Source of the DNA: Candidatus Neomarinimicrobiota bacterium
GTDB taxonomy: Bacteria; Fidelibacterota; Marinisomatia; Marinisomatales; S15-B10
Direction: 5' to 3'
Length of the DNA: 64,000 bases
Assembly: GCA_036476315.1 (NCBI GenBank)
Contig: JAZGBI010000063.1
Coordinates: 1 to 64,000, forward strand
Part shown: positions 6 to 47,851 of the stretch, piece after piece
Layout of the letters: each line of letters begins with the position of its first letter
Numbering within the stretch: position 1 is the stretch's first letter
Made by a program: the position numbers and the translations under genes
The notes under the pieces: model-generated
Database searches by the model: none
Seen by the model: only the letters and a program-made list of their open reading frames with translations
What the model was told of the DNA's origin: nothing

Positions 6-1055
6 GTGCCTGAAAAACCTATTAAGATTCTAATGATTGAGGATAGCACCTTCTTTTCTCAATACATAAAGAAGATGCTGGCTGAAGAAAAGAGCGATGG
101 ATTCGATGTGGAATTAAAATATACTGACCAACTATCGGTAGGACTGGAGCTTATTGAAGAGGACGAAATCGACGTCATCCTATTGGATCTCACGTTACCA
201 GATTCTGAAGGATTGGATACGTTCACAAGAACATCTGCTCAAGCATCCGAACTACCTATTATAGTAATCTCTGGTCTCGGAGATGAAAAGCTGGCTACCG
301 AGATAGTCCAGAAGGGCGCACAGGATTATCTGATTAAGAGTCAGGTGAACAACATTGTGCTAAAACGTTCTATTCTCTACGCAATGCAGCGCAAGCAGGC
401 AGAAATAGAAATAAATAACTATCGCGAACATCTTGAAGAACTAATTGAAAAACGCACTCAGGAATTGCAGATATCAAAAGCAAAAATACAGAACATTTTT
501 GATTCTGCTAGCGATGGAATATATGCTTTAGACTTGAAAGGTAATTTCACAGAAGTCAATCAAAGAATGCTTGATATGTATGGATTCGGAACGTTTAATG
601 AGATGTTGGGAACGAACGGGTTTGATTTGATTCCTCCCAGCGAAATCGAAAAAGCAAAGTCAGTAATGGGGGAAGTTCTGGAGAAGGGAGAGATTTCCTC
701 CCTGGAATATTTTGCTCGAAAGATCGACGGTTCTGAATTCCCCGTTTCAGTAAGTAGTAGTATTCTGAAGGATGCTTCTGGAAATGCCGTGGGAACTATT
801 GGAATTGCTAGAGACATCACAGACCGCAAGCTGGCGGAGGAGGAATTAAAAAAACACCGCGATCATTTAGAAGAGTTGGTTGAATCCCGCACCGGCGAAT
901 TGCGGAAAACGATCAACCTGATGGCTGGACGAGAAGTTCGCATGGCAGAGTTGAAAGACACGATCAAGGCATTACGCACTCAACTACAAGAAACAGGTAT
1001 GACACCGGTGGCTGATGACCCTTTGAAGGAGGAAGGGATAATGAATAAGAAATGA
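6..1055 (+). CDS. Receiver-PAS sensor protein without kinase domain
   Basis: Residues about 7-125 form a complete response-regulator receiver with the acidic pair E12/D13, phosphoacceptor D61 in an ILLD motif and a conserved lysine near 111 (DYLIK). A coiled coil follows, then a PAS domain (about 160-285) ending in the usual GIARDITDRK linker, a second coiled coil, and a C-terminal tail (about 303-345) with the pattern NLM-x2-REVR-x2-LK. The same tail ends the two other kinase-less sensors downstream. There is no HisKA or HATPase domain, so output must pass through a partner protein. The GTG start at position 6 lies at the window edge and its ribosome site is cut off; the receiver is complete, so the true start cannot be far away. 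Likely cytoplasmic and co-transcribed with the following genes. Confidence 0.85.
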   Translation: MPEKPIKILMIEDSTFFSQYIKKMLAEEKSDGFDVELKYTDQLSVGLELIEEDEIDVILLDLTLPDSEGLDTFTRTSAQASELPIIVISGLGDEKLATEIVQKGAQDYLIKSQVNNIVLKRSILYAMQRKQAEIEINNYREHLEELIEKRTQELQISKAKIQNIFDSASDGIYALDLKGNFTEVNQRMLDMYGFGTFNEMLGTNGFDLIPPSEIEKAKSVMGEVLEKGEISSLEYFARKIDGSEFPVSVSSSILKDASGNAVGTIGIARDITDRKLAEEELKKHRDHLEELVESRTGELRKTINLMAGREVRMAELKDTIKALRTQLQETGMTPVADDPLKEEGIMNKK

Positions 1056-1096
1056 ATGTTAAGACAGGACCCAAATAGAATGAGGACTCAAGTTCA

Positions 1097-1735
1097 ATGC
1101 GATTAAAACCGGACATATCCGATGATCTCTTGTCAAAGTGGCAGAAAATCGTTGACTTGATGGCCACAGTGGTTAGGGTCCCTGCTGGGCTCATCATGAA
1201 GGTTCATCCCACGGAGATTGAAGTATTTGTATCAAGCGATACTGAAGGCAACCCTTACGATAAGGGAGAAATGGCTCAGTTGAATACAGGGCTGTACTGC
1301 GAGACAGTTATGGCACGACGGGCCGAACTCCTGGTTCCTGATGCGCGTGAAGATCCGGAATGGGCACATAATCCTGACATTAAGTTGGGTATGTTTTCGT
1401 ATTTCGGGTTGCCTCTGGAATGGCCTGATGGGGATGTGTTTGGAACCATATGTGTTTTGGACAAGAAAAAGAATAGGTATTCCGATACATATCGGGAGCT
1501 GATTTGTCAGTTCGGCGAGGCTTTGAAGATGGATCTCAAGAATCTTGTCACCATCTTTGAACTGGAGCGAACACAGAGAGAGCTGCAGAAGATGGTCAAC
1601 CTGATGGCTAACCGTGAGGTGCGCATAGCGGGATTGAAAGAGATAATTCTGCAATTACGCGCACAGCCGGAACAGACAGGTCTGACGCTAGTGACAGATG
1701 ATTCATTGAAGAACATAGGTAAGAGGAAGCGCTGA
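1097..1735 (+). CDS. GAF-domain sensor with shared C-terminal tail
   Basis: A 212-residue cytoplasmic protein. Residues about 10-150 resemble a GAF domain (LNTGLYCETVMAR, then GTICVLDKK before the last helix), a small-molecule or redox-sensing fold. A short helix leads into a C-terminal tail with the NLM-x2-REVR-x2-LK pattern that also ends the proteins at 6-1055 and 1894-3342. There is no kinase or DNA-binding domain. The ATG start has a GAGGA ribosome site about nine bases upstream. The stop overlaps the start of a 40-codon membrane ORF (TGATG), indicating translational coupling. The bound ligand is unknown. Confidence 0.8.
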   Translation: MRLKPDISDDLLSKWQKIVDLMATVVRVPAGLIMKVHPTEIEVFVSSDTEGNPYDKGEMAQLNTGLYCETVMARRAELLVPDAREDPEWAHNPDIKLGMFSYFGLPLEWPDGDVFGTICVLDKKKNRYSDTYRELICQFGEALKMDLKNLVTIFELERTQRELQKMVNLMANREVRIAGLKEIILQLRAQPEQTGLTLVTDDSLKNIGKRKR

Positions 1736-1857
1736 TGCGGGCGAAAGGAGCTTGGCGTTTGGCTACGGTGTGGGCAGTGGTTGTCGCAGTATCTCTGGTG
1801 TGGAACGTGTTTCAGGAAAAACAACAGTTCTTGGAAGCTGCCCGTATTCAAGCTTGA
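1735..1857 (+). pseudogene. 40-residue N-terminal remnant of a Tll0287-like (DUF3365) sensor
   Basis: A short ORF starts on the TGATG overlap with the GAF gene and encodes 40 residues: a basic start, one membrane helix (about residues 9-22) and the segment NVFQEKQQFLEAARIQA. From memory this matches the N-terminus of sensors with a DUF3365/Tll0287-like periplasmic domain, where the text normally continues with an arginine and a phenylalanine-rich stretch. Here it stops at TGA, and the downstream sequence shows no sign of that domain. The rest of the gene therefore looks deleted. It may still be translated as a small membrane peptide because the overlap with the GAF stop is intact. The pseudogene reading is an inference. 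Confidence 0.55.
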
Positions 1858-1893
1858 TGTGGAGACTACCTGATTAATAATTGAGATTCACCG

Positions 1894-3342
1894 ATGAGTT
1901 ATGATGTAGAAAGGCCACTGAAATTCTCTTCCTGGGAAGTGGTGAAACGATTCCTAGTTATTTCTGTCTTCTTAATAGCACTTATTGGAATTGTGACATC
2001 GACAATCTACTACAATGATCTGGCTCGAGAGAAAAAGCTTATTGAAAACGATCAAATGCTCGAGATATACAAGTTAAGTGAAATAATTACCATCCATATG
2101 GACGCCGTTTTCTCGGACCTGTTAATTGTAGCAGAACACAATCGTTTATTGGAATTGATTGACTCCTATAGTAAGACCAGACGCGATGCTTTAGCGGAAG
2201 TTTTTCTAACATATTCTACAAAGAAACGGGTTTTTGATCAGATACGTTTATTGGATACAACAGGTAAAGAAATTGTGCGAGTCAATTTCAATAATGGCGA
2301 TCCTGCCATTGTCCCCGATGAAAAACTTCAAGTAAAGAAAAAACGGTATTATTTCCAGGATATTTCCCAATTGGATCGCGGGGAAATGTACATATCTCCG
2401 TTTGATCTGAATGTTGAATACGGACAGATTGAACAACCGTTGAAACCAACGATACGTCTTGCGACCCCGATTCTTGACAGTGAAGACCGAAAATCCGGGT
2501 TTTTAGTTCTCAACTATTTGGGTTCAGACTTACTCGAACATCTAGCTTGGATAGAGTCTGATGCTCATGTTGGACAAATCATGCTTCTTAATTCTGATGG
2601 GCATTGGTTGAAAAGTCCCAATAAGGAAGATGAGTGGGGATTTATGTATGAAACTAGGACTGACCTTACTTTTGGAAAAGCATTTCCCGATGCATGGCAA
2701 CAGGTGAATAGCGAATCCTCAGGTCAATTAATTACAGAAGAGGGACTTTTCACTTTCAATACCATATATCCCTCCTCTGAAAGCATAAAAGCGAGTATAA
2801 GGTCAAGTAGGCCATTTGAGCCGGGTGAAACTAAGCAATGGGCTGAAGATTATTACTGGAAAATCCTAACCAGGGTTACACCTGGCGAATTGATTGCGCA
2901 CTCAAGGAAATTGTTAAAGAGTATTCTCCTGGTGGATGGTGTATTACTTGTAACATCAATGGTCATTCTATGGATTCTCGTCTACACAAAATTATTACAC
3001 AAACAAGCTGAAAAGGAATTGGAAAAACATCGCGGCTACCTTGAGCGATTGGTTGAGGAACGCACTTCCGAATTAAGAGTTGCTAACGAGCAACTGCGAA
3101 AAGAGATCACCGAACGGAAGCACGCAGAGGAAAAAATCCGCAAGTTGAATAGAGAACTTAAACGACGGGTCAAGAGCAGGACTACAGAACTGGAGAAGAC
3201 GGTTAACCTGATGACCGGGCGTGAGGTTCGCATGGGGGAATTGAAGAGTGTCATAGGGGAACTTCAAACACAATTAGAATCGGCCGGAATGAGACCTGTG
3301 GTGAGTGATCCGTTGAAGGAAACAGGCAGAAAAGAAAGCTGA
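1894..3342 (+). CDS. Membrane Cache-type sensor without kinase domain
   Basis: A 482-residue membrane protein: helix 1 at about 20-42, a large extracytoplasmic region (about 45-335) with the look of a double-Cache sensor (a first module around LLDTTGKEIVRVN, a second around MLLNSDGHWL), helix 2 at about 342-364, then two consecutive coiled-coil segments with EERT-x2-L linkers. It ends in the same tail (about 435-478, NLM-x2-REVR) as the two preceding sensors. The coiled coils are the kind that normally precede a HisKA domain, but no kinase is present. It may feed the kinase encoded 27 bases downstream; this is inferred from order only. Confidence 0.8.
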   Translation: MSYDVERPLKFSSWEVVKRFLVISVFLIALIGIVTSTIYYNDLAREKKLIENDQMLEIYKLSEIITIHMDAVFSDLLIVAEHNRLLELIDSYSKTRRDALAEVFLTYSTKKRVFDQIRLLDTTGKEIVRVNFNNGDPAIVPDEKLQVKKKRYYFQDISQLDRGEMYISPFDLNVEYGQIEQPLKPTIRLATPILDSEDRKSGFLVLNYLGSDLLEHLAWIESDAHVGQIMLLNSDGHWLKSPNKEDEWGFMYETRTDLTFGKAFPDAWQQVNSESSGQLITEEGLFTFNTIYPSSESIKASIRSSRPFEPGETKQWAEDYYWKILTRVTPGELIAHSRKLLKSILLVDGVLLVTSMVILWILVYTKLLHKQAEKELEKHRGYLERLVEERTSELRVANEQLRKEITERKHAEEKIRKLNRELKRRVKSRTTELEKTVNLMTGREVRMGELKSVIGELQTQLESAGMRPVVSDPLKETGRKES

Positions 3343-3369: not shown

Positions 3370-5430
3370 ATGAATTTCGTTAGTGGGAGTTTGAGGAATA
3401 AGTTGATTGTGGTCTTATTGACCACCTCGCTCAGTCCGATTATGATTGTAGGATGGTTGAGTTTTGTCAATGCCAGAAATTCTCTTCGAACTATTGCGAT
3501 TGACGCGTTAGAATCGATTATCGATCAAAAAATTCAAACAGTAGAGTTATTCTTTCTGGAGCGCAGCCAAGATATCCAAGCAGCTCAAGAATTCTATAAT
3601 ATTAAGGCGAATCTTCCCATTGTGAGCCAGTTTGCTAATGATAGAACCCATCCCGAATATGTTGCAGCTAAGAAAATGCTCGATGGCCAGCTAAAGACAT
3701 TCCAAAAAGCCTATGACTACGCAGATGTTATGCTGGTGAATTCTGAAGGGGTAATTGTGTATGCATCCGAAGAAACACATGAAGGGAGCGACCTGGGCGA
3801 ACCTCTTCCTGACCCATCCGGCCAGGTGTTTGAAGAGGGGAAAAAGGGGATATACTTTTCTGATATTTTCCCATTCGGTGAGAAATCTGATATGAATGAG
3901 ATGATGGTCTCAGCACCAATCTATGATTTTGACGGAATGTTTGCTGGTGTGGCTGTATTGGAGATTGATATGACGCCTATATATAGAATGATTCAAGATA
4001 CAGCTGGATTGGGTGAAACGGAGGAAACTCTGATCGGTCAGAGAATAGATAATGAGGTGGTATTTCTTAGTCCGCTTCGTCATGATCCAGACGCTGCCCT
4101 TACCAGAAAAGTAGCTATGGGGAGTGATATTGCTGTTCCAATGCAGAAAGCTGTTCAAGGTTTACGGGGTGTTGACTTATCTGTTGATTACCGCGGTGAA
4201 GAGGTCATCGCTCACTGGCAGTACCTTCCTTCTTTGAATTGGGGGCTCGTTGGCAAAATAGACCAGAGGGAGGCCTTTGCTCCCGTAATGTCATTGAGAC
4301 GCACTTTAATAGTATTTTCCATTTCCCTGACTTTCCTACTGATAGGACTCTCCTACTGGGCATCAAGAAGGCTTACAGATCCGATAAATTCTTTGAGAGA
4401 ATTGGCCAATCGAATTTCCAGTGGTGATTTCTCTGTTTACCCCGAAGTTAAGTCTGACGATGAGGTCGGCCGACTTTCTGATACTTTCATTGAGATGGCC
4501 AGGGAGTTAGAGATATCAATCACAGAATTGCAGGGGGAGATTGCAGAGCGTAAGCGGGCGGAGGAAGAACTGAAGGAATACAAGGACCATTTGGAAGGGA
4601 TAGTCCAGGAGCGTACAACCGAACTTGAAGAACGAGTTTCGGAAGTGGAAAGGCTCAATCAAGGAATGACGAATTTGGCAGAAGATATGCAGGTGATCAA
4701 CGCAAATTTAGAGTCCACAACCCGACAATTATCCGAGGCCAATAAAGAGTTGGAGGCCTTTAGTTACTCCGTTTCACACGATCTGCGAGCACCGTTGAGA
4801 GCAATCGAGGGATTCTCAAGGATGCTCGCTGGGGATTATGCAAGTACTTTGGACAAGGAAGGCCAACGCTTGCTGAAGGTTATCACCGATAACACACAAA
4901 CGATGGCAAATTTGATTGATGACCTACTCGACCTTTCCCGGCTGGGTCGTACAAAGATGAGATGCCAGATTACTGACGCAAACAAGCTAGTTAAAGCAGT
5001 CCAGAAGGAGCTTACTGCTGAAGTCCCTGATCGTTCAATCCGGTGGGATATCAAAGACCTCCCAAATATCCGGTGCGACCCATCTTTAATCCGGCAGGTT
5101 TTTGTTAATCTCCTATCGAATGCAGTCAAGTATACGAAAACGCGGAAGACGGCCAAGATCGAAATTGGCAGCATGACAGAAAATGACGAGATAATATTCT
5201 ATAGTAAAGACAATGGTGTTGGTTTTGATATGAAATACGTTGAGAAGCTGTTTGAAGTTTTTCAGCGCTTGCATAGTAGCGAAGAGTTCAGCGGTACAGG
5301 TGTTGGACTCGCGATTGTGAAGCGTATAGTTCAACGCCATGGAGGTCGCGTTTGGGCGAAAGGACAGGTTGATAAAGGGGCAACCGTTTATTTCACGTTA
5401 CAAAAACAAGGGGAAACAGATGAGCTATGA
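3370..5430 (+). CDS. Transmembrane Cache-HAMP histidine kinase
   Basis: A 686-residue sensor kinase. Membrane helix 1 (about 10-32), an extracytoplasmic double-Cache domain (about 35-305), helix 2 (about 311-332), HAMP (about 333-385), a long coiled coil, then HisKA with the H-box [11 protein letters not shown] (phosphoacceptor H470) and a HATPase domain showing the N-box [18 protein letters not shown] and GTGVGLAIV. This H-box and ATPase type is typical of phytochrome-family kinases that partner with small Rcp1-like receivers. The last 11 bases overlap the start of exactly such a receiver gene at 5420, so the two are very probably a translationally coupled pair. Confidence 0.92.
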
Positions 5431-5863
5431 AGACGACATTCAGATTCTGATGGTGGAGGATAATCCTGCTGATGCTGAACTGGCCTTGAGGGCTCTGAAG
5501 AAGCACAATCTGGCCAACAATGTGTATTGGGTCAAGGATGGAGCCGAAGCATTGGACTTTGTTTTTGCCCGTGGAGAATATTCTGATCGCACTCAAAACC
5601 ACCGTCCCAAGTTGATATTATTGGATTTGAAACTGCCCAAAGTGGACGGATTAGAAGTGTTACGCCAGGTCAAGTCTAATGAAGAAACAAAAGTAATCCC
5701 TGTTGTTGTACTTACATCATCCAAAGAAGAACAGGATATGATAGAAAGCTATGAGCTAGGAGTGAACAGTTATATCGTGAAGCCGGTGGGTTTTGACAAT
5801 TTTGTTGAAGCTGTGGCTGAATTAGGCTTGTATTGGCTACTTCTTAATCAACCTCTGCGCTAG
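5420..5863 (+). CDS. Stand-alone receiver, Rcp1-like response regulator
   Basis: A 147-residue single-domain response regulator: acidic pair E13/D14, phosphoacceptor D69 in ILLDLKLPK, a conserved threonine/serine in VLTSSK, and the lysine in YIVKPV. The extended loop FARGEY between beta-2 and alpha-2 and the C-terminal helix with YWLLLN are typical of Rcp1-like partners of phytochrome-type kinases. A longer in-frame reading from 5339 exists, but ATG 5420 is preferred because the receiver begins here and it overlaps the kinase stop by 11 bases. There is no output domain, so it acts by protein-protein contact or phosphorelay. Confidence 0.9.
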
Positions 5864-5925: not shown

Positions 5926-7809
5926 ATGAGTGATCTTATGCGCGTCCTGATGCTGGAAGATGTACCAACAGACGCAGAATTGATTGAACGTGAGCTTAAA
6001 AGTGGAAAATTCAATTTTGTTCTGAAACATGTTGACAACAAAGAAGCATATCAAAAAGGATTAAAGGAATTTCAACCGGATCTTATTCTATCTGATTACA
6101 GCCTGCCTCAATTTACCGGAATAGATGCTCTGAAGATCACACTGGAGCAAACAACTGACATCCCATTTATAATAGTCACTGGATCTATGAATGAAGATAC
6201 CGCTGTCGATTGTATTAAGGCCGGAGCCTGGGATTATGTAATTAAGGAGCATCTACAGCGTCTAAACCCAGCAGTAAATGAAGCGATGGAATTGAAACGG
6301 GCCCGAGATGAACGTGGGCAGGCGGAGGAGGAATTGAGGAAGAGCGAGGAGAGATACCGGACCACCTTAGACAGTATGTTGGAGGGTTGCCAGATCATAA
6401 GCTATGATTGGCATTACTTGTATGTCAACGACATAGTGGCAAGGCAAGGCCGCCGGGAAAAGGAAGAACTTCTGGGCCACACTATGATGCAGGTGTATCC
6501 AGGTATTGAAGATACTGAGATGTTCGCATTTCTTCGTCGCTGTATGGAGAGGCGGATTCCACATCGGATGGAAAATGAATTTACATTTGCTGATGGAAGC
6601 ACAGGTTGGTTTGATCTAAGCATTCAGCCTGTGCCCGACGGCATCTTTATACTCTCTTTAGACATTACCGAGCGAAAGCGTTCAGAGGAAGCGCTGAAGA
6701 CATCTAAAGAATATACAGAGAATCTTGTTGGTAGTTCTCTAGACATGATCATCGCTGTTGATAACAACAGAAGAATTTCAGAGTTCAATAAGGCCGCTGA
6801 GGAGACTTTTGGATATAGCCGGGAGGAAATACTGGGTAAGCATGTAAACATACTCTACGCAGATAAGAAACAGGGTCTTGTTGTCCACAAAATGACGGTC
6901 AGGGAAGGACGGCATATCCAGGAAGTGCATAACCGGCGAAAAAATGGAGAGGTTTTCCCGAGTCTTCTTTCTTCCTCTGTCCTCGTTGATTCGAAAGGTA
7001 AAAGAGTGGGGGCGATGGGAGTCTCTCGTGACATCACGGGGAGGAAGCAAGCTGAGGAGGAAATCCGGAAACTCAACGAAGAGCTGGAGCAGCGTGTCAA
7101 AGAGCGCACTACTGAACTCGAAGCTGCCAATGAGGAACTCGAGTCATTTTCCTACTCAGTCTCGCACGATCTGCGGGCGCCCCTTCGCACCATAGACGGC
7201 TTCAGCCAGATCTTACTGGAAGATTACGGCGACAAGCTTGACTCACAGGGTAAAGATTACCTTCAAAGGGTGGATAAAGGTGCGAAGCACATGGCGCAAC
7301 TCACTGATGATTTGCTGGAGTTATCACGCGTGACACGAAGAGAAATGAAACGGCAAGCAGTTGATTTGAGTGCGTTGGCAAAGGAGATTGCTGCAGAACT
7401 TGAGAAGACCCAACCGGAGCGTCAGGTGGAGTTCATAATTCCAAAGGGGTTGGTTGCCAACGGGGATTCGCGTCTTCTACGCGTGGTACTGGAAAACCTC
7501 ATGGGGAATGCCTGGAAGTTTACCGGTACCAAGCCGCGCGCAAAGATAGAGTTCGGTGTCGAAAGTGTTAACGGCGAGTCGGCCTATTTCGTGAAGGACA
7601 ACGGTGCGGGTTTCGATAGGGCCTACGCCGACAAACTATTTGCCCCTTTCCAGCGGCTGCATTCAGAGACTGAATTTGAAGGCACCGGAATTGGTTTGGC
7701 CTCCGTAAAGCGAATCATACGTCGTCATGGTGGCCAGGTCCGGGCCGAGAGTAGAGAGGGGAGTGGGGCAACATTCTACTTCACCCTTCAGCAACAAAAG
7801 GAAGAATAA
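5926..7809 (+). CDS. Hybrid kinase: receiver-PAS-PAS-HisKA-HATPase
   Basis: A 627-residue cytoplasmic kinase with an N-terminal receiver (phosphoacceptor D57 in ILSDYSLP), two PAS domains (about 140-265 and 265-385, each ending in an ITERK/ITGRK linker), a coiled coil, HisKA with H-box [11 protein letters not shown] (H414) and a HATPase domain (NLMGNAWKFT, DNGAGFD, GTGIGLASV). The N-terminal receiver suggests it receives phosphate or a docking signal from an upstream kinase, possibly the one encoded at 3370-5430. An Rcp1-like receiver gene starts two bases after its stop. The ATG start follows a GAGGAG-type ribosome site. Confidence 0.92.
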   Translation: MSDLMRVLMLEDVPTDAELIERELKSGKFNFVLKHVDNKEAYQKGLKEFQPDLILSDYSLPQFTGIDALKITLEQTTDIPFIIVTGSMNEDTAVDCIKAGAWDYVIKEHLQRLNPAVNEAMELKRARDERGQAEEELRKSEERYRTTLDSMLEGCQIISYDWHYLYVNDIVARQGRREKEELLGHTMMQVYPGIEDTEMFAFLRRCMERRIPHRMENEFTFADGSTGWFDLSIQPVPDGIFILSLDITERKRSEEALKTSKEYTENLVGSSLDMIIAVDNNRRISEFNKAAEETFGYSREEILGKHVNILYADKKQGLVVHKMTVREGRHIQEVHNRRKNGEVFPSLLSSSVLVDSKGKRVGAMGVSRDITGRKQAEEEIRKLNEELEQRVKERTTELEAANEELESFSYSVSHDLRAPLRTIDGFSQILLEDYGDKLDSQGKDYLQRVDKGAKHMAQLTDDLLELSRVTRREMKRQAVDLSALAKEIAAELEKTQPERQVEFIIPKGLVANGDSRLLRVVLENLMGNAWKFTGTKPRAKIEFGVESVNGESAYFVKDNGAGFDRAYADKLFAPFQRLHSETEFEGTGIGLASVKRIIRRHGGQVRAESREGSGATFYFTLQQQKEE

Positions 7810-7810
7810 T

Positions 7811-8260
7811 ATGAGCGAGAAAATCATACTTATGGTGGAAGACAGTCCAAATGATGGGATTTTGACCCTCCGTGCTCTTGAGAAAAACAAGGTGAAAAAC
7901 CGGATCGTTGTGACCAGCGGTGGAGAACATGCACTGGATTATCTTTTTGCAAGAGGTGAGTACGAGGGCCGGGATACCAGTGCTATGCCGGACCTTATCC
8001 TGCTCGATCTCAATATGCCCAAAGTAGGTGGTTTGGAGGTGCTGCAGCAAGTGCGCGCAGATGACCGGACAAAACTCATACCTGTTGTTGTCTTCACCAC
8101 TTCAAAAGCGGATAGAGACCTGATTGATGCTTACAACCTGGGCGTAAACAGCTACGTTCGCAAGCCGGTGGACTTTAAGGAGTTCAAAAGAACTGTGGAA
8201 CAACTGGAGCAGTACTGGACAGTTCTCAACCTGCCACCGCCCAGGGGAGAAAGATACTAG
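7811..8260 (+). CDS. Stand-alone receiver, Rcp1-like response regulator
   Basis: A second 149-residue single receiver, clearly paralogous to the one at 5420-5863: acidic pair E10/D11, phosphoacceptor D66 in ILLDLNMPK, FARGEY insertion, VFTTSK and the conserved lysine in YVRKPV. The ATG at 7811 is chosen over a longer reading because the receiver fold begins here and it directly follows the stop of the preceding kinase. The next gene starts on the base after its stop. The duplicated order of kinase plus receiver suggests a tandem duplication followed by exchange of the input domains. Confidence 0.9.
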   Translation: MSEKIILMVEDSPNDGILTLRALEKNKVKNRIVVTSGGEHALDYLFARGEYEGRDTSAMPDLILLDLNMPKVGGLEVLQQVRADDRTKLIPVVVFTTSKADRDLIDAYNLGVNSYVRKPVDFKEFKRTVEQLEQYWTVLNLPPPRGERY

Positions 8261-9334
8261 ATGAGAGCACCGCTCAACGTATTGCTCATAGAGGATTCAG
8301 AGGATGATGCTCTGTTACTGCTGCGTGAACTTCGGCGCGGGGGATATGATCCAACCTTTGAGCGCGTCGAAACCCCCAAGGACATGAAAGCTGCATTAGA
8401 AAACCAAACCTGGGATGTCATTATTTCCGATTACGTCATGCCCCGTTTCAGTGGACCAGCCGCCTTGGCACTGCTGAAGGAGTATGGGTTCGACGTACCA
8501 TTTATTATCGTGTCCGGAAAGGTGGGTGAGGAAACAGCGGTTCAGGTCATGAAGGCCGGTGCCCATGACTACATTATGAAAGACAATCTGGCGAAACTGG
8601 TCCCTGCCATCAAGCGTGAATTACAAGATGCAGAAGTGCGGCGGGAACGCACGCAGGCCGAAGATGAATTAAGAAAATCGCGTGACAAACTGCGAAAACT
8701 TTCTTCCCATCTTCAGACAGTTAGAGAGGAAGAGAGGACCGCGATTGCACGTGAGGTCCACGATGAGTTGGGCCAGTTATTGACTGCCATCAAATTTGAT
8801 GTCTCTTGGCTACGGAAAAGAATACCGAAGGAAGCAACAGACGGGATCGAAAAGACGGGATCGATTCTCAAGCTTATCGATTCCGCGATCCAATCAGTGA
8901 AGAGAATTTCATCGGATCTTAGACCGGTAGTTCTGGATGACCTTGGAATTGCAGCGGCCATGAAGTGGGAGGCGAATAAATTTGAAAACCGAACGAAAAA
9001 AATATGTAAGGTCAGACTTAGTCCAGAAGATATCGTTTTGGATCGTGATCGTTCCACAGCGGTTTTCCGAATTTTTCAAGAGGCCTTGACGAATGTGGCT
9101 CGTCACTCAGGCGCTACCGAAGTGACGGCAACATTAGGAATCGAGGATCATCTGGTAAAACTTAGTGTTGTGGACAATGGGAGGGGTATTACCGAGGAAA
9201 TGACTTCCAGTTCTGACTCCTTAGGTCTTATCGGCATGCGAGAGCGAGTGATTGCATGGAACGGTGAAATTGAGATCAAAGGTCAAAAAGGGAAAGGGAC
9301 ATCCGTGGGAGTAAGCATTCCACTGGGCTCTTAA
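8261..9334 (+). CDS. Receiver-HisKA_3 histidine kinase
   Basis: A 357-residue cytoplasmic protein with an N-terminal receiver (phosphoacceptor near residue 57 in IISDYVMPRFSG), a coiled coil and a NarX/LiaS-type kinase. Its HisKA_3 box reads EERTAIAREVHDELGQ with H167, and the HATPase domain shows FQEALTNVARHSGA and VVDNGRGI. HisKA_3 kinases normally phosphorylate NarL/LuxR-type regulators, and one follows 10 bases downstream. The start abuts the stop of the preceding receiver gene, with GGGGAGAAAG in that gene's end as ribosome site. The receiver-first layout makes it a likely relay step from the kinases upstream to the transcription factor downstream. Confidence 0.9.
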   Translation: MRAPLNVLLIEDSEDDALLLLRELRRGGYDPTFERVETPKDMKAALENQTWDVIISDYVMPRFSGPAALALLKEYGFDVPFIIVSGKVGEETAVQVMKAGAHDYIMKDNLAKLVPAIKRELQDAEVRRERTQAEDELRKSRDKLRKLSSHLQTVREEERTAIAREVHDELGQLLTAIKFDVSWLRKRIPKEATDGIEKTGSILKLIDSAIQSVKRISSDLRPVVLDDLGIAAAMKWEANKFENRTKKICKVRLSPEDIVLDRDRSTAVFRIFQEALTNVARHSGATEVTATLGIEDHLVKLSVVDNGRGITEEMTSSSDSLGLIGMRERVIAWNGEIEIKGQKGKGTSVGVSIPLGS

Positions 9335-9344
9335 GAAAACTACA

Positions 9345-9977
9345 ATGATAAGAGTACTCATTGCGGATGATCATCGGATTGTTCGCGAGGGGTTGAAGCA
9401 GATACTGGCTGAAACCTCTGACATTACTGCAGTCGGTGAAGCGAGTAACGCTGGGGAAGTATTAACGCAGGTATTGAAGAATGATTATGATGTCGTTCTA
9501 TTGGATATCTCTATGCCAGGTAGAAGTGGTTTAGAAGTCTTAAGGGAATTGAAGAGTGCAAAAGCAGGTTTGAAGGTTCTAATGTTAAGTATGCATCCTG
9601 AAGAACACTATGCAGTCAGGGCGTTGAAGGCAGGTGCGTCGGGATATCTGACCAAGGATAGGGCACCGGAAGAATTGATAGAGGCGATACGAAGGGTATC
9701 ATTGGGTGGGAAATATATCAGTGCTACCCTCGCTGAGAAATTAGCGTTTTACCTGGAAGAGGACTCAGAAAAACCACCACATGAGAGGTTATCTGATCGT
9801 GAATATGAGGTCATGCGCATGCTTGTTTCAGGAAAGACAGTAAAAGAAATAGCTCAAGAGTTATCATTGAGTGTTAAGACGGTCAGTACCCACCGGACGC
9901 GCCTTCTCCGAAAGATGAGTATGAAAACGAACGCTCAATTGACGTCCTACGCTATTCAGAATAAGCTTGTAGAGTAA
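9345..9977 (+). CDS. NarL/LuxR-family response regulator
   Basis: A 210-residue DNA-binding response regulator with a receiver at 1-120 (D8/D9, phosphoacceptor D54 in VVLLDISMPG, lysine in YLTKDRAP) and a C-terminal LuxR helix-turn-helix at about 145-205 (LSDREYEVMRMLVSGKTVKEIA, then LSVKTVSTHRTRLLRKM). It is the only DNA-binding output of the island, so the kinases and receivers upstream probably converge on it. Target genes are not evident. A C-run followed by an A-run lies just after the stop, with no clear terminator. Confidence 0.93.
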   Translation: MIRVLIADDHRIVREGLKQILAETSDITAVGEASNAGEVLTQVLKNDYDVVLLDISMPGRSGLEVLRELKSAKAGLKVLMLSMHPEEHYAVRALKAGASGYLTKDRAPEELIEAIRRVSLGGKYISATLAEKLAFYLEEDSEKPPHERLSDREYEVMRMLVSGKTVKEIAQELSLSVKTVSTHRTRLLRKMSMKTNAQLTSYAIQNKLVE

Positions 9978-10912: not shown

Positions 10913-11536
10913 CTATTTCCTCTTTCTGGCATAGTATCGCCGCACTTTGTTCCGGTTTCCGCAGTCCTTCATGTCGCACCACCGACGTGACCGGTTACGG
11001 CTCATATCAAAAAACAACCAGCCACACCCCCGGTCATCCGCACATTCACCAACCCTCTCAATCGCATCGGAAGTCAACAATGACGCTGCCGAACGGGCAA
11101 TAGGCCACAATATTCGATCCAGCGCATTTTCGTCACCGGACCACCCCCAGTCAAAGCCCTTTTCGGATTGTAAGAGTCTCAAGTGAACCAGAGCTTCCGA
11201 TAATGAGGCATTCAGGGCAGCCAGGTTAGATGACTCTGGTTGTCTGTCCTCTGCAACCGCAGAGAATATCTGGTAAATGGTCTCCCGAAGGGAAATAGCC
11301 TGCCTGTGGACTCTCTTTGTCCTTACAGGGCGCTGTCTTGATTCCTGCAGGATTTTTTCGGCTTCCTGATTTTCTAAGACTCCAACATCCCTGGCCCAGG
11401 AAACCAGTTTGCGGTAAGTGCCAATATGTTCATCTGGGTGATCACTGGCATGCCATTCCGCAGTGTTTGCAAAGTCCAGGCATATCCAGCCGGTTTCCAG
11501 TTTAAGAGGGAGGTTGTATGCGTTGGTTTCTGTCAT
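10913..11536 (-). CDS. CGNR zinc-finger / ABATE-domain protein
   Basis: A 207-residue protein with an N-terminal ABATE-like region (LCLDFANTAEWH at the start) and a C-terminal CGNR zinc finger. In the finger, a cysteine in the CADDRGCGWLFFD segment and the later RWCDMKDCGNRNKVRRYYAR supply the cysteines and the signature CGNR. Members of this family are predicted stress-related transcription regulators. The gene is read away from a good plus-strand promoter at 11595-11624, so it may control that divergent unit, although this is only positional inference. Confidence 0.85.
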   Translation of the reverse strand: MTETNAYNLPLKLETGWICLDFANTAEWHASDHPDEHIGTYRKLVSWARDVGVLENQEAEKILQESRQRPVRTKRVHRQAISLRETIYQIFSAVAEDRQPESSNLAALNASLSEALVHLRLLQSEKGFDWGWSGDENALDRILWPIARSAASLLTSDAIERVGECADDRGCGWLFFDMSRNRSRRWCDMKDCGNRNKVRRYYARKRK

Positions 11537-45194: not shown

Positions 45195-45589
45195 AATCAT
45201 CAAGATAAAAGTAAAAAGTCGGATTCCGACGATCAAGTGTCAAGGATCAAGTAACAAGGATCAAGTGTCAAGTAACCAGTGAACCGGTCACCAGATGGCA
45301 GTCAGCAGCTACCGGGTTGGAGAAGTGGAGAATTGTTCCGTAGGAACTCCTTTGACCCGTAGGGTCTCCTGTGGAGGAGGAAGAATGTCCAAAGGAGCCT
45401 GTGGCGAGTATTGCGGCACGGAGGCCAGTGAGCATTCAGCACTCATTGTCCAGAAGCATCGAGCATCCAGTATCTAGCATCAAGATTCACGGATTACGCA
45501 TCGAGTATCAAGAAACCAGCATCCGGGAACCAGAGGGAAAGACGTGTTCAAGTGTTTCCCGAGGGGACTCCTTCGGAGCAGGTGTTAAC
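45195..45589. repeat. Repeat array directly upstream of the DnaE polymerase core
   Basis: CAAG-NNN words followed by CCAGTGAACCGGTCACC and GGCAGTCAGCAG (45238-45308), then GTAGGAACTCC, GGTCTCCTGTGGAGG and a further run of GAGCATCCAGTATC and CAAGATTCACG words to about 45530. An open frame from 45371 crosses this array into the polymerase gene, but its translation is not protein-like before about 45590. The array therefore forms one edge of the split dnaE. Confidence 0.7.
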
Positions 45590-47851
45590 GTGAAAGACTC
45601 GAAAACGAAAAGTTCTACTGATCTTCTGGTCAAAGTCTGTCACGAGGCCTTGCCGGAGAAGTACGATCCCATCACCACGGAGGTCTTGAAGCGCCTCACT
45701 TATGAGCTCGATATCATTATCGAGATGGGGTATGCCGATTATTTCCTGATTGTTTGGGATATTGTTCGATGGGCGAAAAGGCGCGGCATTCCCGTGGTGG
45801 GCCGCGGTTCAGCGGCGGGGAGCTTGGTGTCCTATTTGTTGGAGATCACCCCGGTCGATCCTATCAAACATAACCTGGTGTTCGAACGGTTTTTGAATCC
45901 CGATCGCCAGGAACCACCGGACATTGACATCGATCTCTGCTGGAAGCAGCGGGACGACGTCATCGAGTACGTCTACAAGCGGTATGGTCGGGATCGGGTC
46001 GCCATGATCTGCACCTACAATACCTACAAATTCCGGGGAGCCGTCAGGGACGTTGCGAGGGCCATGGGACTTTCCGAACGGGAAATCAATACTATCTCGC
46101 ACAACTTGCCGTTATCCCATGAACCGACATTGGGTAACGGGGATGGGAGGAACGATCCGCGTTATGAAGAAATCTTTGAGACGGCCCGAAGTTTGATCCA
46201 CCGGCCGCGACACATGGGGATTCACGCGGGAGGAATTGTCATCACTCCAGACAAAATCACCGAATACGTTCCCCTTCAACGATCCACCAAAGGTCCCGTG
46301 GTGACCCAGTTCGATATGCACGGAGTGGAAAAGATAGGGCTTGTGAAGATCGATCTATTGGGTCAGCGGTCTTTAACCGTGGTGGCGGAGATGGCGGAGA
46401 CGCTAAAGAAAAAATATGGAGTCCGGTTCGACCTTCAGACGATGCCATCATTGGATGAAAAGGTAAAACGTCTCATCCGAACGGGCCGGACCATGGGAGT
46501 ATTTCAGATCGAATCGCCGGGGATGAGAGGATTATTGAAGAAATTGAAGGTTGACTCCTTCGAGATGATCACGGCGGCCAGTTCCGTTATCCGGCCGGGA
46601 CCTGCAGACTCGGGGATGTTGCGCCATTTCATCAAGCGGCACCATGGAAAAGAAGAGGTTAAAACGGTTCTTCCGGCCATAGGGGAGATACTGAAAGAAA
46701 CATACGGTGTGATGCTCTACCAGGAGGATGTCATCAAGATTGCTGAGGCCGTTGCTGGATGGAGCTTGGCAGAATCGGATAAACTTCGCCGGTCCATGAG
46801 TGGGAAAAGGGTAGAGGAACCGTTTATGGAGCACCGGGATCGGTTCATTAAGGATGCCGTGAAGAGGGGTGTGAATGTGGACGCCGCTATCGAGACCTGG
46901 CGGCAGATGGTGGCTTTCTCCGGATATGCTTTCTGCAAGGCCCACTCCGCTGCCTATTCGGTGGTTTCCGTTCAGTGTGCCTGGCTGAAGGCCCACTTCC
47001 CGGCGGAGTTTCTGGCTACTGTCATGTCCAATTATGGTGGATTCTACCATACGTCGTGCTATCTGGAAGAAGCCCGGCGTATGGGGATCAATATTCTGCC
47101 GCCGGACGTGAACCTTTCGGAACCCCACTTCATAGGTCACGATGACGACGGCGAAGAGGAGTGGATTCGGATCGGTCTTCTTCAGGTGAAGGGGTTAACC
47201 CAGGCCACACTCAAAAAAATATTGGACAAACGTAAGGAAAGACCGTTTGAGTCGCTGGAGGACTTCTGTGTCCGGGTGAGGCCGTCTTGCCGGGAAGTAG
47301 AGGCACTCATTCGCTGTGGCGGATTTGATTCATTTCCTTACACCCGTCCTCAGCATTTGTGGCGCCTCAAACTTATCTATGATAAACTCAAGGGTTCGGA
47401 GGAAGTCATTTTCTCCAGGGTGGTCACGAAAGTATCCACGCCTGTTCCCTGGGTCGATTATCCTTTGGAGAAAAAATTACGGGATGAGCTGGAACTCATG
47501 GAACTCACGGTGGAAAAACATCCCCTGTGGATCTATAAAAAGGCACTGAAGGCTCATGCAGAAAAAGTGGGAAAGTTTGTTCATGCCCGGGATCTTGAGA
47601 GGTACAAAGGAAAACAGGTCACCATGGTGGGCTGGATGGTTACCACCCGACGGTTGAAGACCAAGCGGAAAAAGATAATGCAATTTCTTTCCTGCGAGGA
47701 TCTTACAGGGACATTTGAGTGTGTCCTTTTCCCCCACGCGTATCAGCAATATGGCCATCTGATCCGGAGCCGGGGGCCTTACATGATCACTGGCAAGGTG
47801 GAAGATGATTTTGGACACACCCCCGTTACCGTGAAAAAATTGGAGCTCTGA
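45590..47851 (+). CDS. dnaE: DnaE-type DNA polymerase III alpha lacking its PHP domain
   Basis: A C-family polymerase of about 753 residues beginning where the palm domain begins. Key motifs: LTYELDIIIEMGYADYFLIVWDIV, GRGSAAGSLVSYLLEITPVDP, catalytic D111 and D113 in PPDIDIDL, GLVKIDLLGQRSL with D255, GVMLYQEDVI, a helix-hairpin-helix (KGLTQATLKKILDKR) and a C-terminal OB fold (QVTMVGWMVTTRRL). It ends soon after the OB fold, without the tau-binding domain, as in short error-prone-type DnaE proteins. The missing PHP domain is encoded at 29894-30631; together they would total about 998 residues. GTG 45590 is proposed as start. Confidence 0.88.
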   Translation: MKDSKTKSSTDLLVKVCHEALPEKYDPITTEVLKRLTYELDIIIEMGYADYFLIVWDIVRWAKRRGIPVVGRGSAAGSLVSYLLEITPVDPIKHNLVFERFLNPDRQEPPDIDIDLCWKQRDDVIEYVYKRYGRDRVAMICTYNTYKFRGAVRDVARAMGLSEREINTISHNLPLSHEPTLGNGDGRNDPRYEEIFETARSLIHRPRHMGIHAGGIVITPDKITEYVPLQRSTKGPVVTQFDMHGVEKIGLVKIDLLGQRSLTVVAEMAETLKKKYGVRFDLQTMPSLDEKVKRLIRTGRTMGVFQIESPGMRGLLKKLKVDSFEMITAASSVIRPGPADSGMLRHFIKRHHGKEEVKTVLPAIGEILKETYGVMLYQEDVIKIAEAVAGWSLAESDKLRRSMSGKRVEEPFMEHRDRFIKDAVKRGVNVDAAIETWRQMVAFSGYAFCKAHSAAYSVVSVQCAWLKAHFPAEFLATVMSNYGGFYHTSCYLEEARRMGINILPPDVNLSEPHFIGHDDDGEEEWIRIGLLQVKGLTQATLKKILDKRKERPFESLEDFCVRVRPSCREVEALIRCGGFDSFPYTRPQHLWRLKLIYDKLKGSEEVIFSRVVTKVSTPVPWVDYPLEKKLRDELELMELTVEKHPLWIYKKALKAHAEKVGKFVHARDLERYKGKQVTMVGWMVTTRRLKTKRKKIMQFLSCEDLTGTFECVLFPHAYQQYGHLIRSRGPYMITGKVEDDFGHTPVTVKKLEL

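Follow-up and report, generated by a model that had tools for sequence, protein, structure and literature searches.

A C-terminal tail common to kinase-less bacterial sensors and its candidate partner, a rare linker element of histidine kinases

Introduction

Many bacterial proteins with PAS or GAF domains have no output domain, and their role is usually left open. Three such sensors are encoded side by side at the start of contig C63 of a Candidatus Neomarinimicrobiota genome (2.6 Mb, 112 contigs), in the window of 64,000 nucleotides analyzed here. How do these proteins, which have different inputs and no kinase domain, pass on what they sense? An earlier note on this DNA had observed that all three end in the same tail, and had proposed that the tail is a docking module by which different sensors plug into a common kinase. 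We examined the tail, its relatives in other genomes and the kinases encoded beside them. The main new result is a candidate kinase partner element, which sharpens the docking idea.

Results

Three kinase-less sensors share a tail

The first sensor (positions 6–1055, plus strand) consists of a receiver domain (residues 8–113) with its phosphoacceptor motifs present, a PAS domain (residues 165–275), an S-helix and the tail. The second (1097–1735, plus strand) has a GAF domain (residues 14–142) from which a single 65-residue helix (residues 130–194) leads into the tail. The third (1894–3342, plus strand) has an HK_sensor_dom_bact domain (PF21623) between two hydrophobic segments, followed by two ERT/SRT coils and the tail. 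As these genes open the contig, a gene upstream of the first may be absent from the assembly. The input regions belong to different Pfam families (Response_reg and PAS; GAF; HK_sensor_dom_bact), in line with the unrelated receiver-PAS, GAF and Cache inputs described earlier, except that the third is PF21623 and its match to Cache is marginal (E 0.018). Domain searches of the three proteins found neither HisKA nor HATPase_c, and the MCP signaling domain (MCPsignal) was not among their families.

The tails lie at 897–1031 (ELRKTINLMAGREVRMAELKDTIKALRTQLQETGMTPVADDPLKE; profile match E 9.6e-27), 1580–1714 (ELQKMVNLMANREVRIAGLKEIILQLRAQPEQTGLTLVTDDSLKN; E 1.6e-21) and 3187–3321 (ELEKTVNLMTGREVRMGELKSVIGELQTQLESAGMRPVVSDPLKE; E 4.8e-23), all on the plus strand. 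In pairwise alignment they are 56–61% identical over ~55 residues, with 23 invariant columns. A profile search of the whole genome returned exactly these three tails (E 1e-31 to 1e-33), the next best match having an E of 0.27. The earlier note was therefore right about the three open reading frames and their coordinates, the common tail, the lack of kinase domains and the absence of the tail from the neighboring kinases.

The tail continues an S-helix and has a motif of its own

The tail had been described as a 40-residue pattern; it is real but longer (~45 residues), and is continuous with the preceding S-helix, the 'ERT' coil. It prolongs the S-helix coiled coil and then breaks into P-x-A-D-D-P-L. 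With residues counted from the R of REVR, the a and d positions (L-10, L-7, M-3, R0, M4, L7, I11, L14 and L18) keep the S-helix heptad register, one d position being Arg, as it is in S-helices. S-helices are parallel coiled coils with an ERT signature in the central heptad, and almost always lie between two signaling domains (Anantharaman, Balaji, and Aravind 2006; PMC1592074). The coil before the tail has heptads and this ERT/SRT signature (R at -14 in 44 and T at -13 in 46 of 50 long tails), which the tail itself does not have. Here, by contrast, the coil leads to a free C-terminus that bears a conserved motif of its own, and no output domain follows; long-form tails end ~10 residues or less from the C-terminus. 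An AlphaFold2 model of the second sensor (pLDDT 83.5) has a continuous helix over residues 130–194, mostly at pLDDT 80–95, which leads from the GAF domain as far as the G of 'TGL', beyond which the end is extended and of low confidence.

Because the patterns used for scanning favor REVRMAELK, conservation was recounted on 71 tails free of both patterns, with R0 and E1, and partly L7, serving as anchors. Outer, nonheptad positions were conserved in this set (E6 in 65/71, K/R8 in 69/71 and E-11 in 56/71), and the tail is thus not a coiled coil conserved at its heptad hydrophobic positions only. Tails occur in a long form, which ends in G-x-x-P-x-A-D-D-P-L, and a short form (GRELRMIELKKEIKELE), which does not have this end.

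No curated Pfam or NCBIfam model covers the tail, there being only subthreshold coiled-coil matches, and the PDB contains no credible relative (best match, the LSD1 coiled coil, E 0.26). This bears out the earlier view that the tail belongs to no named or described domain. The tail is also nowhere named in the literature searched on kinase-less tailed sensors (most subscription journals lay outside the search).

Tails occur in about ten lineages

A scan of 84,980 species genomes yielded tail relatives at 49 loci in about ten lineages, including Chloroflexota (Anaerolineae and others), Desulfobacterota, Nitrospirota, Deferribacteres, Electryonea, Verrucomicrobiota, Lentisphaerae/Victivallales and some Patescibacteria. 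In every match of this set, the tail is located about 10 residues or less from the C-terminus. As the earlier note had suggested, the profile was used to look for domain partners and gene neighbors; it recovered unrelated inputs and a recurrent kinase neighbor. The inputs of 75 tail proteins comprise PAS (48), GAF (22), HAMP (7), dCache (5), receiver (5), SBP_bac_3 (4) and others. HMMs detected no HisKA or HATPase in these 75 proteins, and these domains, like MCPsignal, are not among their 25 commonest Pfam families. The neighbors of orphan tail genes form no pattern (queuosine synthesis, ABC binding proteins, an aldo-keto reductase, a TonB receptor). One orphan tail gene has directly upstream of it a gene for a CheR methyltransferase with fused PAS domains (L021:170–2164).

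None of nine other sampled genomes of the window's own family has a tail, and tail 1 is 76–78% identical to tails of other lineages as compared with 67 and 58% to its two neighbors in the window. Both observations fit an old, strongly constrained module and a probable lateral acquisition of the window's cassette.

The neighboring kinase has a rare linker element

Downstream of the sensors is the proposed hub kinase (3370–5430, plus strand), with the architecture dCache-HAMP-S-helix-element-HisKA-HATPase_c and with H, N, G1 and G2 motifs present. Its S-helix (approximately 4558–4632) has the ERT signature reported in PMC1592074. The element that follows (4633–4743; element profile E 1.4e-17) is the only copy in the genome. 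It comprises 37 residues between S-helix and HisKA (RVxEVExLNxAMxNLLEDLQxxNxxLExTxxQLxxAN), and is common to kinases encoded beside tails. A comparison of profiles gave a probability of 2% for homology of tail and element, which we rejected.

The cassette continues on the plus strand with a single-domain response regulator (5339–5863), a hybrid receiver-PAS-PAS-HisKA kinase (5926–7809) of a gene type that recurs in related cassettes, a second single-domain response regulator (7727–8260), a receiver-HisKA_3-HATPase kinase (8261–9334) and a receiver-LuxR (GerE) response regulator (9345–9977), likely a DNA-binding output. Its order is that of related loci, namely a tail gene (often two in tandem), a HisKA kinase, a single-domain response regulator and a receiver-kinase hybrid. 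The kinases at 5926 and 8261 have neither tail nor element. Since the kinase at 5926 has no element, it is probably not a direct partner of the tails; the likely socket is instead the rare linker element of the 3370–5430 kinase, which the earlier note had overlooked. Elsewhere in the window are a putative transcription regulator with an ABATE domain and CGNR zinc finger (10913–11536, minus strand), downstream of the signaling cassette, and a DNA polymerase III alpha-like reading frame with palm, finger, HHH and OB domains (45371–47851); no PHP domain was found in this reading frame as called.

Tails and elements occur together

Among 645 sampled genomes, 27 had the element, 56 the tail and 19 both: the tail was present in 19/27 genomes with the element versus 37/618 without it (pooled Fisher P 3.9e-16). 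As the element profile was seeded from kinases beside tails, the clean tests are those on nonseed genomes, and co-occurrence was significant in each of three sets and stayed so without the seeding genomes (P 1.2e-3, 2.1e-6 and 1.8e-5). In the window's phylum all six element genomes had tails (tails in 25/199 overall), in the class of G206 six of eight tail genomes had the element (elements in 11/199 overall), and in the phylum of G204 seven of ten element genomes had tails (tails in 23/247 overall). HisKA is present in 182/199 genomes, and kinases in general therefore do not explain the co-occurrence. Likewise, among 93 kinase-rich genomes of the window's phylum, the six with the element were all among the 20 with tails (P 5e-5). 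Of the 25 genomes of other lineages that have a tail, 23 also have the element; conversely, eight sampled genomes have an element without a detected tail. Tails outnumber elements by 67 to 30 in 26 genomes (those of other lineages plus the window's; e.g. 9:3, 7:2 and 7:1), such that genomes with seven to nine tails have just one to three element kinases.

The two are also adjacent. Of 45 element kinases, 30 have a tail gene immediately upstream, as compared with 7 of 42 other kinases (P 3e-6; the window's own kinase accounts for a few repeated entries), and the stop codon of the tail gene and the start codon of the kinase frequently overlap by 1–4 bp. There are exceptions, with no tail gene directly upstream of 15 element kinases, and with a few tails adjoining kinases that have no detectable element. 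Contigs of metagenome-assembled genomes are short, and some orphan tails or kinases may be contig-end artefacts.

Tail type matches element type

Elements with 'LN' occur in 16/16 adjacent pairs with a long tail versus 2/11 with a short tail (P 1e-5; 27 distinct pairs); the elements of the other nine short-tail pairs are non-'LN', mostly 'SQ'. Both types of pair are found inside the window's phylum and inside the phylum of G204. The mean charges of long tails (+3.3) and elements (-1.6) are opposite. Co-inheritance within operons may be in part the source of the adjacency and type-matching signals.

The unnamed short-tail sensors, found in several phyla, resemble the long-tail ones in having an R-E-x-R/K-M-x-E-L-K core, in their C-terminal tail, in being mostly kinase-less and in lying beside kinases with an LLED element. 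They differ in having no G-x-x-P-x-A-D-D-P-L end and in a partner element that is mostly 'SQxAxxxLLED'. A few short-tail proteins depart from this scheme, in that a kinase domain precedes the tail or a V4R domain follows it. The former are two HisKA_3 kinases (L144:1–1644 and L146:1465–3087), in which a PAS or GAF domain follows the ATPase domain and the short tail comes last; they are the sole tail proteins seen with a kinase domain (HisKA_3/HATPase). The latter belong to the phylum of G204, in some genomes of which a SpoIIE/PP2C phosphatase has the element ahead of it and the linked gene encodes PAS, short tail and V4R (L161, L162 and L168 with L138, L141 and L142). In two genomes it is a SpoIIE-type phosphatase, not a kinase, that follows the element, and plug and socket may thus also serve nonkinase outputs. 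One element precedes GGDEF-like sequence. At L135, L137 and L154, kinases whose translation is coupled to that of short-tail sensors by a 4-bp overlap have two or more tandem 'RAxLNxLED' elements, possibly several sockets in a row.

Discussion

Co-occurrence with the element, adjacency and type matching support the proposal that the tail plugs sensors into a common kinase. We think it fairly probable that the tail is the C-terminal docking helix of stand-alone sensors and acts in trans on the S-helix/element linker of one hub kinase. The S-helix coiled coil of each sensor would carry its signal to the REVRM-AELK helix, which would pack on the matching linker of the hub kinase, that is, its S-helix and the LN-x-x-M-x-N-L-L-E-D-L-Q element ahead of HisKA. 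A docked sensor could then switch the kinase on or off, because this linker is where the signal of the kinase's own sensor enters the phosphoacceptor helices. In this way, unrelated sensors (phospho-receiver/PAS, GAF and membrane) would feed one kinase and its response regulators. The presence of three tails and one element only in the window's genome is consistent with this arrangement, and the conserved outer residues together with the opposite mean charges fit a heterotypic helix bundle. For sensors that have no kinase domain, docking at the linker would be the simplest mode of action. Physical contact, its geometry, the sign of its effect and the integration of all three sensors by one kinase are predictions from sequence.

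The tail could instead be a homotypic or sensor-sensor assembly helix, which extends the S-helix into a parallel coiled coil of homo- or heterodimers, with output through S-helix pairing with any S-helix kinase and no dedicated socket. The a and d residues that continue the S-helix register, the single continuous helix in the model and the frequent tandem pairs of tail genes agree with this, and S-helices mediate dimerization in other proteins (PMC1592074). We nonetheless consider it unlikely, as it leaves unexplained why the distribution of a rare element across genomes follows that of tails, with matching types, and why outer positions and the P-x-A-D-D-P-L end are conserved.

Docking on another member of the cassette, either the single-domain response regulator or the receiver-kinase hybrid, would make the element kinase a mere operon companion. 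Genes for both recur in the same cassettes, but several tail-element pairs have no receiver gene next to them within the stretch fetched (L170 and L199) and tail type matches element type, which makes this quite improbable. It is more improbable still that the tail has no signaling partner and is a stabilizing C-terminal cap, a turnover signal or a localization tag, with its link to the cassette due to hitchhiking: the tail is short, always C-terminal in its long form, extended at its end and of no known function, yet its residues are near-invariant across phyla, it has been attached repeatedly to unrelated sensors, and it co-occurs tightly with one kinase feature. Lastly, the tail might be what remains of a kinase H-box once the kinase domain was lost, or a mimic of one. 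A short visual likeness after an S-helix (GREVRMAEL to SHELRTPL, with His changed to Arg) speaks for this reading, but it is scarcely credible, since the tail has Arg in the place of the phosphoacceptor of H-E-x-R-x-P, and hhalign against 40 HisKA sequences gave a probability of 1% with the wrong helix aligned.

The proposed docking of tails on a hub kinase has likenesses among known systems. In chemoreceptor (MCP)-CheA arrays, many kinase-less receptors with varied inputs and a common output helix act on one kinase. Tail sensors are similarly kinase-less, with varied inputs, a common helix and a proposed common kinase, but no MCP signaling domain and no CheW or CheA parts were seen, and the kinase is an ordinary HisKA kinase with its own sensor. 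In RetS-GacS multikinase networks, RetS, itself kinase-like, contacts GacS through DHp domains (PMC12148439). There, too, the sensors are proteins separate from the one central histidine kinase on which they act, although direct contact is only proposed for the tail system; DHp and ATPase domains are absent from the tail proteins, whose proposed contact is the linker above HisKA.

Viewed more broadly, and more tentatively, at a confidence that stops a little short of even, the tails and elements might constitute a modular plug-and-socket system across phyla. Kinase-less sensors would carry typed C-terminal plugs (long or short), and typed linker sockets would be found on hub kinases or, in some cases, on SpoIIE-type phosphatases or GGDEF proteins, with inputs added by adding sensor genes. 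If docking holds true, an orphan sensor could be assigned to the kinase it serves by sequence alone, through its typed tail and the linker that matches it, and the two would provide a natural connector for synthetic multi-input two-component circuits. It would also mean that the inputs of several stand-alone sensors can be integrated by a single histidine kinase.
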